64,000 bases of DNA from Actinopolymorpha singaporensis. Lineage in GTDB: Bacteria > Actinomycetota > Actinomycetes > Propionibacteriales > Actinopolymorphaceae. Each line of letters begins with the position of its first letter. Position 1 is the stretch's first letter. The notes under the pieces were generated by a model that had not been told where the DNA came from, did not search any database, and was given only the letters and a program-made list of their open reading frames with translations. Shown here one piece after another: positions 53,211 to 64,000 of the stretch. The translations under genes and the position numbers were made by a program. Location: NCBI RefSeq assembly GCF_900104745.1, contig NZ_LT629732.1, positions 1,909,981 to 1,973,980 of the forward strand, written 5' to 3'.

Positions 53211-54188
53211 GTGAGACGTCGGCCGTTGCTCCTCTTCCTCGTCGTGGCGACGGTCGCCCTCGTCCCGTGGATCGGCTTCCTGCTGGTGACCCTGCCCGAC
53301 CAGTACCAGACCAGGCACTGGCGGCTGGCCTGGGTCGGCTTCGACCTGGCCCTGGTGGTCCTTCTCGGCCTGGCGGCGTGGTTCGGCTGGCGGCGGCGCC
53401 GCGCGGCGGTGCCCCTCCTGGTGGCCACGGCCGCGCTGCTGTGCTGCGACGCGTGGTTCGACGTCGTACTCGACTGGAACAGCCCGGACCGGTGGTTGTC
53501 GCTGGCCACCGCCGTCCTGGTGGAGGTCCCGATCGCGGTCCTGCTGGCCGTACGGGCGCGCACCATCGTCACCGCGGGGGTGGCCTCCCGGGAGCTGACC
53601 GTCCACGACATCGAACTCGTCCTGGGCAATCCGAGCGCGCAGCGCCTGCTCACCCTGTTGGGTACGCGGGTGATGACCACCGACGAGCTGGCCGCCGCGG
53701 CGAGCCTGTCGCGGGAGGAGGTCCGGGCGACGCTGCGCGAGCTGTCCCGGGCCGGGTACGTCGAGGCGGCCGGGCAGGGGTGGCGGGACGTGCCGCTCAA
53801 CCTGCGCGCCCCACGGCCCGAGGACTTCGCCGAGGCGGACCGGCCCCGGTTCGAGGCGTTCTGGGACGCCAGGCTCGCGCACGAGCTGAAGCTGTTCCGG
53901 CGGGCGTTCCGGCACCCGGAGCGGTTCGGGCCGTGGGCCCAGGGCTCGCGGGCGCGGCTCCTGCTGTCCCAGGGCGAGCTCCGCCGGTTCGCCGACGAGT
54001 ACCTCGAGCTCCTGGACCGCTACCAGCTCCTCCACGCGGACGGCGGGGGTGACGGCGACGGCGACGGCGAGGTGCGGGCGGTCGCGCTCCGCTTCTACGC
54101 GTTCCCGGACGATCTCCTGACGGCGGATACCGACAGTGCGTCCGGGCGCGCAGTCCCGGTCGACGGCCCCGGGCGCGACACACCATAG
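53211..54188 (+). CDS. Four-helix membrane protein with cytoplasmic winged-helix domain
   Basis: 325 residues from GTG 53211. Four hydrophobic segments ([74 protein letters not shown]) are followed by a winged-helix region near residues 150-190 ([36 protein letters not shown]) and a helical C-terminal part. This looks like a membrane-bound one-component regulator. The stop lies 10 nt before the glycyl-tRNA synthetase start, so they are probably cotranscribed. No named family recognised. Confidence 0.8.
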
Positions 54189-54198
54189 GGTGGTCCGC

Positions 54199-57198
54199 GT
54201 GGCAACTGTGGTGACGATGCAGGACGCGCTCCTCGCGCTGACCAACTACTGGACCGAGCGCGGCGCGATGATCGTGCAGCCCTTCAACACCGAGGTCGGA
54301 GCGGGTACGTACAACCCCGCCACGATCCTGCGGGTGCTGGGGCCGGAGCCGTGGCGGGTGGCGTACGTCGAGCCGAGCGTCCGCCCCGACGACGCACGGT
54401 ACGGCGAGAACCCCAACCGCCTGCAGACCCACACGCAGTTCCAGGTGATCCTGAAGCCCGACCCGGGCGACCCGCAGGAGGTCTACCTCGGCAGCCTGGG
54501 CGCGCTCGGCATCGACGTGGACGCGCACGACATCCGGTTCGTCGAGGACAACTGGGCGTCCCCGGCGCTCGGTGCGTGGGGCCTGGGCTGGGAGGTCTGG
54601 CTCGACGGCCTGGAGATCACCCAGTTCACGTACTTCCAGCAGGCCGGCGGCAAGAACCTCGACCCGGTGTCGGTGGAGATCACCTACGGCATCGAGCGGA
54701 TCCTGATGGCGCTGCAGGGCGTCGCCCACTTCAAGGACATCGCCTACGCGCCCGGGATCTCCTACGGCGAGGTGTTCGGCCAGTCCGAGTACGAAATGAG
54801 CCGGTACTACCTCGACGACGCCGACGTGGCCACCAACTGGCGGCTGTTCGAGGACTACGAGGGGGAGGCCCGCCGGTGCATCACCGAGCGGCTGCCGGTC
54901 CCCGCCCACAACTTCGTCCTGAAGTGCTCCCACGTCTTCAACGTGCTCGACTCCCGCGGCGCCATCAGCACCACCGAGCGGGCGAACGCGTTCGGCCGGA
55001 TGCGCTCGCTGGCCCGGCAGGTAGCCACGCTGTGGGCCGAACGCCGGGAGGAGCTGGGTCACCCGCTCGGTCTGGCCGAGCCACCGGCGCTCGCGGAGGC
55101 GCCCGCCGACGACTCGGCGTACCCGAAGATCGACGAGCCGAGCACGCTGCTGTTCGAGCTCGGCACCGAGGAGCTTCCGCACGCGGAGGTACGCCGGACC
55201 GCCGAGGCCGTCCGTGAAGGGCTGACCAGCCGGCTCGCGGGTACCCGCCTCACCCACGGCGACGTTCGCACCTACGCCACGCCGCGGCGGGTGGTCGCGG
55301 TCGTCGAGGCGGTGGCCCCGCACGAGCCGGACGCCGAGCGCACGGTCCGCGGGCCACGTGTCTCGGCCGCCTACGACGCCGACGGCAACCCGACCAAGGC
55401 CGCGCAGGGGTTCGCCCGCGGCCAGGGTGTGGACCCCGCCGACCTGACCCGGATCGAGCAGGGCGGCGCGGAGTACGTCGCCGCGGTCCGCACCGAGGTC
55501 GGCCGGCCGGCGGCGCGGGTGCTGTCGGAGGTGCTCGGCTCGCTGGTGGCCGACCTGCGCGCCGACACGAACATGCGCTGGAGCGACCCGAAGCTGTCGT
55601 TCACCCGTCCGATCCGCTGGCTGCTGGCCCTGCTCGGCGAGCAGGTCGTCCCCGTCGCGGTCTCCGCGCTGGCGTCGGGGCCGACCACCCGGGTGCGGCG
55701 TACGGCTGCCGAGCCGGTGGTCACCGTGCCGTCCGCCGACGGCTACCTCGACTTCCTGCGCCGGCACGAGATCACCGCCAGCCCGGACGAACGCCGTGAG
55801 CTCGTCGTGGCCGCGTCCCGGTCCCTCGCCGCGCAGGTGGGCGGCGTGATCGACCTGGAGGGCGAGGCTGCCCTGGTCGAGGAGATCGTCAACCTGGTCG
55901 AGCACCCGGTGCCGATCCTCGGCTCGTTCTCGGCCGACTACCTCGACCTGCCGGCGGAGATCCTCACCACGGTGATGCGCAAGCACCAGCGCTACCTCCC
56001 GGTGCGTGCGGGCGACGGCACGCTGCTGCCGCACTTCGTCGCCGTCGCCGACGGTTCCTGCGACGCCGACGTCGTGCGCGCCGGCAACGAGGCGGTGCTG
56101 CGAGCGAGGTACGAGGACGCGGCGTTCTTCTGGCGGGCCGACCTGGACGTGCCACCGGAGCAGCACCGCAGGGGCCTGGCCAAGCTGGCGTTCGAGAACC
56201 GCCTCGGCTCGATGGCCGAGCGCGCGGACCGGATCGCCGCCGTCGCGGGCCGGCTCGGTGAGCTCGTGTCGGTGTCCGGCGACGACGCGACCACGCTGGC
56301 CCGGGCGGGTGAGCTGACGAAGTTCGACCTTGCCTCGCAGATGGTGGTCGAGCTCACCTCGCTGGCCGGGACGATGGCCCGGGAGTACGCCCGGCGGGCC
56401 GGGGAGACCGACGCGGTGGCGTCGGCGCTGTACGACATGGAGCTGCCGCGCACCGCAGGTGGCCCGCTGCCGGCGACCCGGCCGGGCGCCCTGCTGGCGC
56501 TGGCGGACCGGCTGGACCTGCTGGCCGGGCTGTTCGCGGTCGGTGCCAACCCGACCGGAAGCTCCGACCCGTTCGCGCTGCGGCGGGCCGCGCTCGGCGT
56601 GGTGAGCATCCTGCGCGACCGGCCCGACCTCGCCGCCGTCACCGTGGAGCGCGGGCTGGCCGAGGCTGCCGAGCGGATTCGCGCACAGGGCGTGGAGGTG
56701 CCGGAGCAGGCGCTGGCCGATGCGCGTGAGTTCGTCGTACGGCGGTACGAACAGCAGTTGCTGGACGCCGGGCACGAGTACACCCAGGTGCAGGCGGTCC
56801 TGCCGCTGGCGGGGACGCCGGCGCTGGCCGACCAGACGCTGCGGGAGCTTTACCGGCGTACGTCCGACCCGGCGTTCGGTGACGTGGTGACGGCACTGCA
56901 GCGGGTGCGGCGGATCGTGCCGGCCGACGTGGCCCGCGGCTACGACCCGGCCGCGCTGACCGAGCCGGAGGAGCTGGCGCTTCACCAGGAGCTGGGCAAG
57001 GTCGCCGACACGCTCGGGCCGGAGTACTCCCTGGCCGAGTTCGCGGACGCTGCCGGTGGGCTGGTCGGCCCGGTCAACGCGTTCTTCGACGCGGTGCTGG
57101 TGATGGCCGACGACCCGGCGGTACGCGCCGCCCGGCTTGGGCTGCTGGCCTCGATCCGCGACCTGGCCGCGCCCGTGCTCGACTGGGACGCCCTGTAG
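54199..57198 (+). CDS. glyS: Glycyl-tRNA synthetase, fused alpha and beta chains
   Basis: 999 residues charging tRNA-Gly. Residues 1-about 295 are the catalytic alpha chain ([49 protein letters not shown]); after a short linker, residues about 315-999 are the beta chain ([45 protein letters not shown] and a C-terminal anticodon-binding helical domain). Separate glyQ/glyS genes are the usual bacterial form and fused ones occur in some lineages; the better-known actinobacteria (mycobacteria, streptomycetes) use the unrelated alpha2 enzyme. GTG 54199 chosen; ATG 54217 possible. Confidence 0.94.
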
Positions 57199-59885: not shown

Positions 59886-60160
59886 CCTGTCGTCTCCGCT
59901 TTCTTCGACTGCAGAAGTTCGTTACAACGTGGTACTGCCGTGAAGAAGTGTTCAGGTTCTAAGGCCGGAAAGCCCCCTGTTGTCCTCAGTTGGCTGAGTT
60001 TGTGCCGGTTCTGGTTGCCGGCTCCCTTGACTGCGAGACGTGGTGTGCGCGTGGGTGGCCGGCGCGTAGTCGCTCGGGCGCGCATGCGGGGTGTTGCCGT
60101 CAGGAAGTGATTGCGGGGGTGACTCGCGAAATCGCGGTTGCCAACCGTGTCCGCTGTAGC
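59886..60160. other. Divergent intergenic region
   Basis: 275 bp between the binding-protein gene and the operator array at 60161. Notable: a locally AT-rich stretch at 59900-59960 likely holding the binding-protein promoter. No gene seen. Confidence 0.5.
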
Positions 60161-60199
60161 GGATAGTACTGGTATCCATAATGGATAGTCTCGCTATCC
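60161..60199. promoter_or_regulatory. Two GGATA-N7-TATCC operator dyads
   Basis: GGATA-N7-TATCC at 60161-60177 and again at 60183-60199: same half-sites, same spacer, starting 22 bp (two helical turns) apart. The inner half-sites also form the palindrome TATCC-ATAAT-GGATA. The array ends 26 bp before the next start codon, so a bound repressor would block transcription. The cognate regulator is not adjacent. Confidence 0.7.
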
Positions 60200-60225
60200 A
60201 CTTCCCCGGAGGAGAGTCGTACGCC

Positions 60226-60642
60226 ATGGAGTCCCTGGCGCTGGCCGCCCCGTCCCGGATCATCGCCGGAGCGGTCCTGCTCACCCTGCTCACCATCGAG
60301 GTCGGTGGCTGGTTCATGACCCGGATCGCGCGCGGCGCGGTCCCGATGACCGACTTCCAGAAGTCCTTCGCGCGTGCGGGGCACGGGCATGCCGGGGTGC
60401 TGGTCATCCTCAGCCTGGTTGCGTTGCTGTACGTCGACGTGACCAGGCTCACCGGAGTCCTGCTGTGGATCGCTCGGCTGGGCGTCCCGGTGGCGGCCGT
60501 CCTGATGTCCGGTGGATTCTTCGCCGCCTCCATGGGGCGTGACGTCACCAGGCCCAATCGGTTCGTCGTCCTGCTGTGGGCAGGTGCGACCTCCCTCGCC
60601 GCCGGGGTGTCGAGTCTCGCCATCGGCCTGCTCATCGCGTGA
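60226..60642 (+). CDS. Small four-helix membrane protein
   Basis: 138 residues with four hydrophobic helices (IIAGAVLLTLLTIEVGGWFM; AGVLVILSLVALLYVDV; LLWIARLGVPVAAVLMSGGFF; VVLLWAGATSLAAGVSSLAIGLL). The loop before helix 2 holds FARAGHGHAGV with two histidines that could bind a ligand. GGAGGAGA ten bases upstream supports ATG 60226 over ATG 60181. No family recognised; its promoter carries the double dyad at 60161, so expression is tightly regulated. Confidence 0.8.
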   Translation: MESLALAAPSRIIAGAVLLTLLTIEVGGWFMTRIARGAVPMTDFQKSFARAGHGHAGVLVILSLVALLYVDVTRLTGVLLWIARLGVPVAAVLMSGGFFAASMGRDVTRPNRFVVLLWAGATSLAAGVSSLAIGLLIA

Positions 60643-62427: not shown

Positions 62428-64000
62428 TCAGAACGGAGGTAGGTCATTGTCGGCCGTTCCCGTTGTGGCGCTGACCGCTGGGTCGTCGACGGCCGGGTCG
62501 GTGAGGGATGGTGTTCGGCTGTGGTAGTGCCGGCCGTGGGGGTCGGTGAGGGTGTGTTCGCCGGGTCCGGTCTGGTGGAGTTTCCAGTCGCGGCCGGTTT
62601 TGGCTTTGTGGTGGCGCGGGCACAGCGGTGCGATGTTCTCTACGGACGTCGATCCGCCGTGGGCGTGTTCGGTGTTGTGGTCGAGGTGGCAGGTGGCGGC
62701 GGGTCTCCTGCAGGTGGTCCATGCGCAGCGTTGGTCGCGGGCATGCACCAGCTCTGCCTGCAGCCCGCGCAGGAATCTCGCCGGGATGGGATGCAGATGC
62801 AACAACCGCCCGGTGACCGGGTGGGTGACCCCGACACTGAATCTGGCTTCGGGGTTGTCGAGGTGGTTGGCGACGACGCGGCGGGCGACTTCGGTGATGA
62901 CGGGTCCGAACCCGCCGAGCTCACCAGGCTGGCTGCTGAGTCCCATCAGGGTGGTCAGGGGGATGTTCAGCTGTATCTTCGCCCGCGCGTGCGTATGGGC
63001 CCCCAGCTCGGTTGTGAGGAGGACCAGGGTGGTGTTGGTGGTGTCGGGTTGCCTGTCGGTGGATCAGGCGGACCTGGCGGGTCGGCCGTTTCGTCGGGTC
63101 GGCGGTTCTGCCGCGGGATCTGACCCGCGGCTGGGTTCGTGGCATTCGTTGCCGCGTGGCGCTCTGCGGCGTCGTGTGCTGCGGTGTCGTGCGCGGTGGA
63201 GCAGTCGCAGGGGGTGTAGTTAGCCGTTCCGGTTCCGGCGGGAGAGCAGTCACCGCAGTCACATCCGGCGCTGTGCAGGTCGTGGTCGGGGAACCGGTGA
63301 ACCGCACAGGACCCTGCTCGCCGCGCTCCTGCCAGGCGTCGCCTTCCGCGGTGCACTGCCCAGTGTCCCGCGGCGTCTCGTCCTGCCCAGCCGCGTCCTG
63401 CCCAGCCGCGTCCTGCCCAGCCTCGTCTTGTTCGGCCTCGTCCTGCTCAGCCTGGTGCTGCTCAGCCTCACCCTTCTTGGTCTGCTTCTGCACCGCGCCC
63501 TGCGCTGCCTGGTCCTGCCTGGTGTGGTTGGTGGCCGCTGGTGCTGAGCAGTCTTTGATGTCGGCGGTGCCGGTGAGTAGGGCGGCGGCGACGTCGGCGC
63601 GGAGTTGGCTGAGGGTGCGTGGGTCGCCGGACGATTTGACTGCGCGGGCGATGGCGTCGATGTAGCCGTACGCCTCGGCGGCCTGGCCTGCGGACAGGCC
63701 GCGGATGGCGAGGTCGGCGACGCCGTCGACGGCGGGCCAGATCGCCACGTTCCGCCCGGACCTGGCCGCCCGGTGCCGTTTGGCGGCGGCTTCGGGGTCT
63801 GCCGTGACGACCTCGGCCTCGACCTTCGCCCGCAACAACCCGCCCCGCAATTCCAGGACTTTGGGGAAGATCGCCTCCTCTATGGCACCCCACACATCGG
63901 GTTCGGCATCGGTGATCCGATCCACGATCACCCGCACATCGTTGAGCTCCAGCCCACCGGACGCGAGGGCCTCACGTACCCGCGGCAGCCGGGGCAGCGT
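62428..64000 (-). pseudogene. DUF222/HNH endonuclease, two frameshifts, 5' end outside window
   Basis: Reading leftwards from the edge: frame A encodes DUF222 (LPRLPRVREALASGGLELND, GLSAGQAAEAYGYIDAIARAV) and a linker with AGQDA repeats to about 63300; frame B then carries the best codon use (DCSPAGTGTANYTPCDCS) to about 63075; frame C carries the rest (RAKIQLNIPLTTLMGL through CAWTTCRRPAATCHLDHNTEHAHGG, LCPRHHKAKTG) to the stop at 62428. Third-position GC follows this path and frame C has a stop at 63064-63066, so each junction needs one lost base. The HNH part itself is intact. Sequencing error in the repeat-rich linker is the alternative. Confidence 0.75.

Follow-up and report, generated by a model that had tools for sequence, protein, structure and literature searches.

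The MerR-type repressor HspR acts at the HAIR operator, CTTGAGT-N7-ACTCAAG, for which several dimers per operator have been proposed (PMC6102357). At the promoter PtnsB, the palindrome of CvkR overlaps the start site and partly the -10 element, and the spacer is 17 nt long (PMC9938897). A third system for comparison is the MerR-family protein SCO5550 (PDB 2dg6). Here we compare with these systems a double palindrome in a stretch of 64,000 nucleotides from Actinopolymorpha singaporensis (contig NZ_LT629732.1, positions 1909981–1973980), which is referred to as the window and whose positions are used unless stated otherwise. The sequence GGATA-N7-TATCC occurs there twice, at 60161–60199, in front of a gene for a 138-residue membrane protein. 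This double dyad is very probably bound by a MerR regulator of the SCO5550 type, and binding of the regulator probably represses the 138-residue protein gene. The reading as a whole, a SCO5550-type MerR protein encoded in trans with the double dyad as its repressing operator, is considered likely.

Dyad 1 (GGATAGTACTGGTATCC, 60161–60177) and dyad 2 (GGATAGTCTCGCTATCC, 60183–60199) both matched the motif exactly and were separated by a linker of 5 bp (60178–60182), none of the three having a strand assignment. Their centers were 22 bp apart, and the inner half-sites formed a third palindrome, TATCC-ATAAT-GGATA. A previous sequence-only reading of the window had reported the two copies with the same half-sites and the third palindrome, and its coordinates and sequence were exact. 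When up to one mismatch was allowed, the window contained two matches, namely dyads 1 and 2. Shuffled versions of the window (n = 100) contained 0.18 matches on average, and 1 of the 100 reached two. The complete genome (6,403,569 bp) contained 4 exact sites versus 0 for the reversed pattern, and 20 versus 6 with up to one mismatch. For the whole genome, the number expected from base composition was approximately 0.9 for exact single sites and 3.5e-7 for exact tandem pairs 22–24 bp apart. The genome-wide scan proposed by the sequence-only reading thus found the tandem pair at a frequency that was not random, and the pair is probably a genuine double operator, a putative site for two dimers. 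A tandem with one mismatch at genome position 4811513 was rejected, as it was within a repetitive coding stretch. The fourth exact copy in the genome (5871899–5871915), also found in the genus relative G002, was 8 bp before the probable start codon of a gene for a peptidase-like protein; it was disregarded, since the inner bases did not fit the GGATAGT/ACTATCC form.

The search for homologs of the 138-residue protein gave 56 loci in the genome contigs, and 82 of the 391 genomes of the order had a homolog. Among these loci, 11 had the tandem pair and an adjacent MerR gene, one had the pair only (L024) and none had the MerR gene only; the remaining 44 had neither, although for one of them, L032, just 335 bp upstream were covered. 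The 11 loci with both were from A. alba, five Kribbella records, one record labeled Streptomyces sp. SID13031, Actinomadura, Micromonospora and two Actinoallomurus species. Thus, only some members of the gene family have the tandem pair, and the expectation that homologs would have the dyads upstream held where a MerR gene was present and failed at the 44 loci where the dyads and MerR were absent together. The exact tandem pattern with a linker of 5–7 bp was found once per genome in 30 of the 391 genomes of the order, with 0 for the reversed control. All 30 were within approximately 1.1 kb of the 138-residue protein gene when coordinates were compared by eye.

With up to two mismatches per dyad and up to three for both together, 37 distinct tandem operators were collected, including the pair of G002, which precedes a mere remnant of the gene. 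Their half-sites were almost invariant, and dyad 1 as well as dyad 2 was conserved in all of them. The spacing was 23 bp in 32 operators (linker of 6 bp), 24 bp in 3 and 22 bp in 2, the window included, and when the limit was widened to 12–40 bp, only 22, 23 and 24 bp were seen among the 37 target-gene pairs. The spacing of exactly two helical turns stressed by the sequence-only reading is therefore a feature of the window that is not shared by most operators, and conservation extends neither to this spacing nor to a fixed third palindrome. Where the regulator was adjacent, the gene order was a divergent merR, the dyads and the 138-residue protein gene, often with a DoxX-like gene between the last two. 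DoxX-like is a loose label: no Pfam DoxX match of the five such proteins exceeded the cut-off, and DoxX_2, DoxX_3 and MauE were found below it in all five.

In the window genome, the only strong relative of these MerR proteins was encoded at chromosome positions 2814506–2815168, 0.84 Mb away from the window. The Kribbella regulator as query matched this protein with an E-value of 2.7e-42, and the next match had an E-value of 2.8e-4; when the protein itself was the query against its own genome, the next match had an E-value of 3.7e-6. It scored 68.6 bits against Pfam MerR_1 (cut-off 21.6), which represents the N-terminal winged helix-turn-helix. The start codon of this merR gene was 2 bp from the third exact copy of the motif in the genome, suggesting a very short leader or none. 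In the genus relatives, the corresponding site had 0 mismatches in G004 and G005, 1 in G002 and 2 in G003. Five genomes of the genus had this merR gene (G000 and G002–G005), and in each of them it adjoined a gene for a 267-residue membrane protein (L003, 3–803, minus strand), which is perhaps a second target of the trans MerR protein.

Actinoallomurus purpureus, the source of the only locus with the pair and without an adjacent MerR gene (L024), had a MerR gene elsewhere in its genome, whose product was 35% identical to that of Kribbella. Upstream of this gene was a tandem of dyads with a spacing of 24 bp, of which one matched exactly and the other had two mismatches, so that A. purpureus appears to be an independent second case of a split between operator and regulator. 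Together with the window's genus and the relatives of SCO5550, Actinoallomurus makes three separate settings in which the motif was found at merR genes. The sequence-only reading had noticed that no such regulator gene was in the immediate neighborhood, which agrees with the own-genome matches lying elsewhere. It had further anticipated an autoregulated gene of the TetR or GntR type; a motif copy was indeed found before a regulator gene, but the motif-linked regulators were of the MerR type, adjacent in 11 of 12 cases and in trans in the twelfth. A TetR/GntR reading of the motif was rejected: the TetR genes accompanied five sampled homologs that lacked it. Nor does the regulator appear to be undescribed, as that reading had it, because the candidate is a MerR protein of the SCO5550 group.

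This kinship was found with several methods. A profile of 11 sequences, made from the alignment of the adjacent MerR proteins in the genome contigs, matched SCO5550 (2dg6) over its full length with an E-value of 1e-40, and the trans regulator matched it with a phmmer E-value of 2.7e-30 over residues 1–216. The model of the Kribbella relative (predicted local distance difference test, pLDDT, 85.5) was superimposed on 2dg6 with a Z score of 18.9 and a root-mean-square deviation (rmsd) of 3.4 over 203 residues. In the C-terminal part, where SCO5550-type regulators are expected to have a dimerization domain that differs from the classical coiled coil, the model was all-helical after the helix-turn-helix, and it is a single chain of a relative rather than of the window genome's own protein. 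Close relatives of SCO5550 (E-value up to 1e-40) numbered 17 in 296 genomes of the class, of which 14 were in one genus, presumed to be Streptomyces because of a 91% match. All 17 loci contained the motif with up to two mismatches, and 11 of them contained it as a pair 22–32 bp apart. The merR start was located automatically in 11 of the 17 loci (9 of 15 in the promoter check), and the others were read directly from the sequence; the motif was within 170 bp of merR in 10 of the 11 loci with a located start, compared with a mean of 0.5 and a maximum of 3 in shuffles. Among the literature matches listed, no paper dealt with this motif or linked MerR to the 138-residue protein gene; GGATA-N7-TATCC may already be described in Hayashi et al. 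(2013).

The surroundings of the dyads resembled a promoter. The labels -35, -10, extended -10 and helix-turn-helix recognition are used here as is general. A -35-like element, TTGCCA (60138–60143, plus strand), was 18 bp before the -10-like element GATAGT (60162–60167, plus strand), which is predicted inside dyad 1 from this spacing. Thus, dyad 1 covers the probable -10 element and transcript start, and dyad 2 is between the promoter and the ribosome-binding site GGAGGAGAG (60208–60216, plus strand). A TTG-type hexamer matching TTGACA in at least 4 of 6 bases was found before GATAGT at a distance of 17 bp in 33 of the 37 operators and of 18 bp in two, the window and G002; it was not found in the operators L021 and L081. 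The three operators that had no merR next to them (the window, G002 and A. purpureus) all kept TTGCCA, so the hexamer is not merely the ribosome site of merR. Moreover, base 10 of dyad 1, which a predicted extended -10 of the divergent merR would need, was C in 33 of the 34 operators next to a merR gene and in none of the 3 that have no adjacent merR (post hoc test, p 5e-4).

In the mechanism that we favor, two MerR dimers would sit side by side on the double dyad. The first would cover the -10 element and the transcription start of the 138-residue protein gene and the second the first transcribed bases at dyad 2, and the gene would be kept off until some signal frees the dimers. The ancestral unit was probably a merR gene and, divergent from it across the double dyad, a DoxX-like gene followed by the 138-residue protein gene; in the lineage of the window, merR would have come to be elsewhere and the DoxX-like gene would have been lost. 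The sign of the control is the part of this mechanism with the most serious competitor. The same SCO5550-type protein might act in the opposite direction, so that its ligand-loaded form activates the gene, as is reported for SCO5550 and sco5551, and we regard this as possible but clearly less likely than repression. In keeping with activation, a typical MerR protein is a repressor that turns into an activator once triggered (PMC9909328). However, classical MerR activation needs the dyad within a -35/-10 spacer of 19–20 bp (PMC5045206), and this layout was absent: the spacer was 17–18 bp and dyad 1 was on the -10 element in 35 of the 37 operators, with the promoter being predicted from sequence. 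MerR-type repressors with palindromes over the -10 element and the start site also exist, namely CvkR at PtnsB, HnoC and McdR (PMC9938897). Repression is thus favored because the spacing is ordinary and dyad 1 covers the -10 element.

A number of observations weigh against a repressing SCO5550-type regulator in trans. The trans regulator was 67% identical to the adjacent MerR protein of A. alba in the helix-turn-helix and 32% identical in the rest, so it may be a paralog and not a relocated gene. It was also retained in G003, G004 and G005, where the target operator was not found, and must therefore have another job. In the trans merR operators of the genus, the second dyad, as seen by eye, was overlapping and weaker and approximately 16 bp off, not 23. 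Three MerR genes of Micromonospora sp. MP36 (L137, L139 and L141), whose products were 33–44% identical to that of Kribbella, had no motif just upstream, so not every related MerR protein follows the binding code; the 138-residue protein gene of this strain was without the tandem pair. Near the relatives of SCO5550, the dyads were single or 22, 23, 27 or 32 bp apart, which makes strict cooperativity doubtful. With regard to the promoter, the -35-like hexamer fell, by eye, in the merR leader where merR was adjacent. The 9 of 15 SCO5550-like loci that were read had no TTGACA-like -35 element, which limits the promoter argument to the Kribbella-type set. Finally, Hayashi et al. (2013) reportedly call SCO5550 an activator of sco5551 in the title of their paper, so that control may be in either direction.

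The other explanations were given far less weight. That a regulator of another kind, such as a TetR, GntR or unknown protein, binds the dyads and that the link to MerR is indirect is very unlikely. It would be in keeping with the TetR, PadR or CGNR-type regulators adjoining the seven motif-free homologs sampled and with the other palindromes seen by eye upstream of motif-free homologs. The 56 loci speak against it, since the pair occurred with an adjacent MerR gene at 11 and without one at a single locus and MerR never occurred without the pair, and so does the presence of the motif at the merR genes themselves. Equally improbable is that the double dyad is a relic, the regulator serving other genes after the control of the 138-residue protein gene was lost. 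Such a loss would fit the decay of the unit in the genus. G002 had the same operator, with one mismatch in one dyad, beside the same solute-binding-protein gene as in the window, followed by a DoxX-like gene and by what is left of the 138-residue protein gene, a short 3' piece. In G005, both genes were incomplete and dyads were absent from the stretch examined, and G003 and G004 had neither gene, G003 having only a weak, disrupted DoxX-like match; the trans-type merR was present in G002 as well as in these three. The window, however, has kept the 138-residue protein gene and lost the DoxX-like gene, and its two dyads are both exact and its promoter-like elements and ribosome site intact. As for chance palindromes, about one exact single site is expected per genome by composition, but the tandem expectation of 3.5e-7 and the conservation of the pair across genera leave this explanation practically no probability, and conservation has already refuted it. 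A SCO5550-type MerR protein acting in trans through the double dyad thus stays the likely explanation.

The gene in front of which the dyads are found (60226–60642, plus strand) starts with an ATG at 60226 downstream of the ribosome site, and the 138-residue reading was right. A longer reading as an open reading frame (ORF) of 153 residues, starting inside the operator at 60181, is not needed. The AlphaFold2 model of the protein (mean pLDDT 95.9) contained four helices. The best Pfam match of the protein was 12.9 bits (cut-off 31.1), and it had no NCBIfam match above the cut-off. A Pfam scan of 46 family members gave an E-value of 0.023 at best, and two further members had no NCBIfam match. 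It is therefore accurate to describe the protein as a four-helix membrane protein whose family has no name. H53 and H55 were invariant in 46 sequences, namely the window protein and those of 45 of the 56 homolog loci.

The best fold match of the model was styrene oxide isomerase (8pnu; Z score 11.4, rmsd 2.5 over 130 residues), although a Z score below 13 may reflect a common helical-bundle arrangement. Segments of heme-copper oxidase and leukotriene C4 synthase, with Z scores of 10.0–10.5, were near it, and Foldseek gave the isomerase a probability of 1.00 but an E-value of 0.14. In styrene oxide isomerase, the axial heme histidine, H58, is in helix 2 (PMC11374702), and a histidine is in helix 2 of both proteins; they differ in that no profile similarity was found. 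Homology by sequence was rejected: hhalign gave a probability of 0.5 with a 5-sequence profile, and the isomerase was not listed in the PDB profile search at E-values up to 10. Across 394 genomes of the class, a search for styrene oxide isomerase yielded just two matches, both weak and partial. Because the profiles did not support homology, a heme or isomerase function is no more than a lead. It is speculative and rather improbable that the SCO5550-type double-dyad code switches small detoxification units for reactive lipophilic compounds, in which the family would be a heme-binding (H53/H55), styrene-oxide-isomerase-like enzyme under MerR, TetR, PadR or CGNR control.

The neighboring regulators of motif-free homologs were scanned at 7 of the 44 loci that lacked both the pair and MerR (L034, L045, L059, L072, L073, L030 and L023), of which five had TetR, one PadR and one CGNR/ABATE; L029, L032 and L058 were viewed outside the scan. 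In Glycomyces and Jiangella, the regions upstream of the homologs had palindromes of their own by eye (CTTGACAGTGTCAAG and TAACAGTGTTA-like). Elsewhere in the window, an ORF of 1020 residues (54136–57198, plus strand) presumably resembles fused alpha and beta chains of glycyl-tRNA synthetase, and an ORF at 62921–63937 (minus strand) contained a stretch of repeats rich in glutamate, glutamine and alanine (AEQDEAGQDAAGQD...).

What had been an orphan operator with an orphan gene becomes, with these results, a testable triple of regulator, operator and target, and a case in which a regulator would have moved away or been replaced while its operator stayed. A simple binding code is suggested for the SCO5550 group, whose crystal structure is known, in several sampled genera. 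The target belongs to a conserved actinobacterial membrane protein family that has no Pfam name and is found beside at least four classes of regulators (MerR, TetR, PadR and CGNR-type).

Similar to the window operator, HAIR is the site of a MerR-type protein, has an N7 spacing and is proposed to bind several dimers. Different from it, HAIR has other half-sites and heat-shock targets, and its flanking dimers depend on unknown determinants and not on a second clear dyad. CvkR differs in that it has a single motif of 15 nt and unrelated targets. The closest likeness is to SCO5550, whose helix-turn-helix stretch TIKYYLREGLLP was identical in the trans regulator. Its relative at L161 (59% identical) has a divergent Monooxy_af470-like neighbor rather than a membrane protein. 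Given that the motif is constant and the divergent gene differs, the binding code seems to be a property of the regulator group, with a target that varies. Moreover, different from SCO5550, the regulator of the window genome would act in trans, and the promoter geometry at its putative double operator suggests repression.
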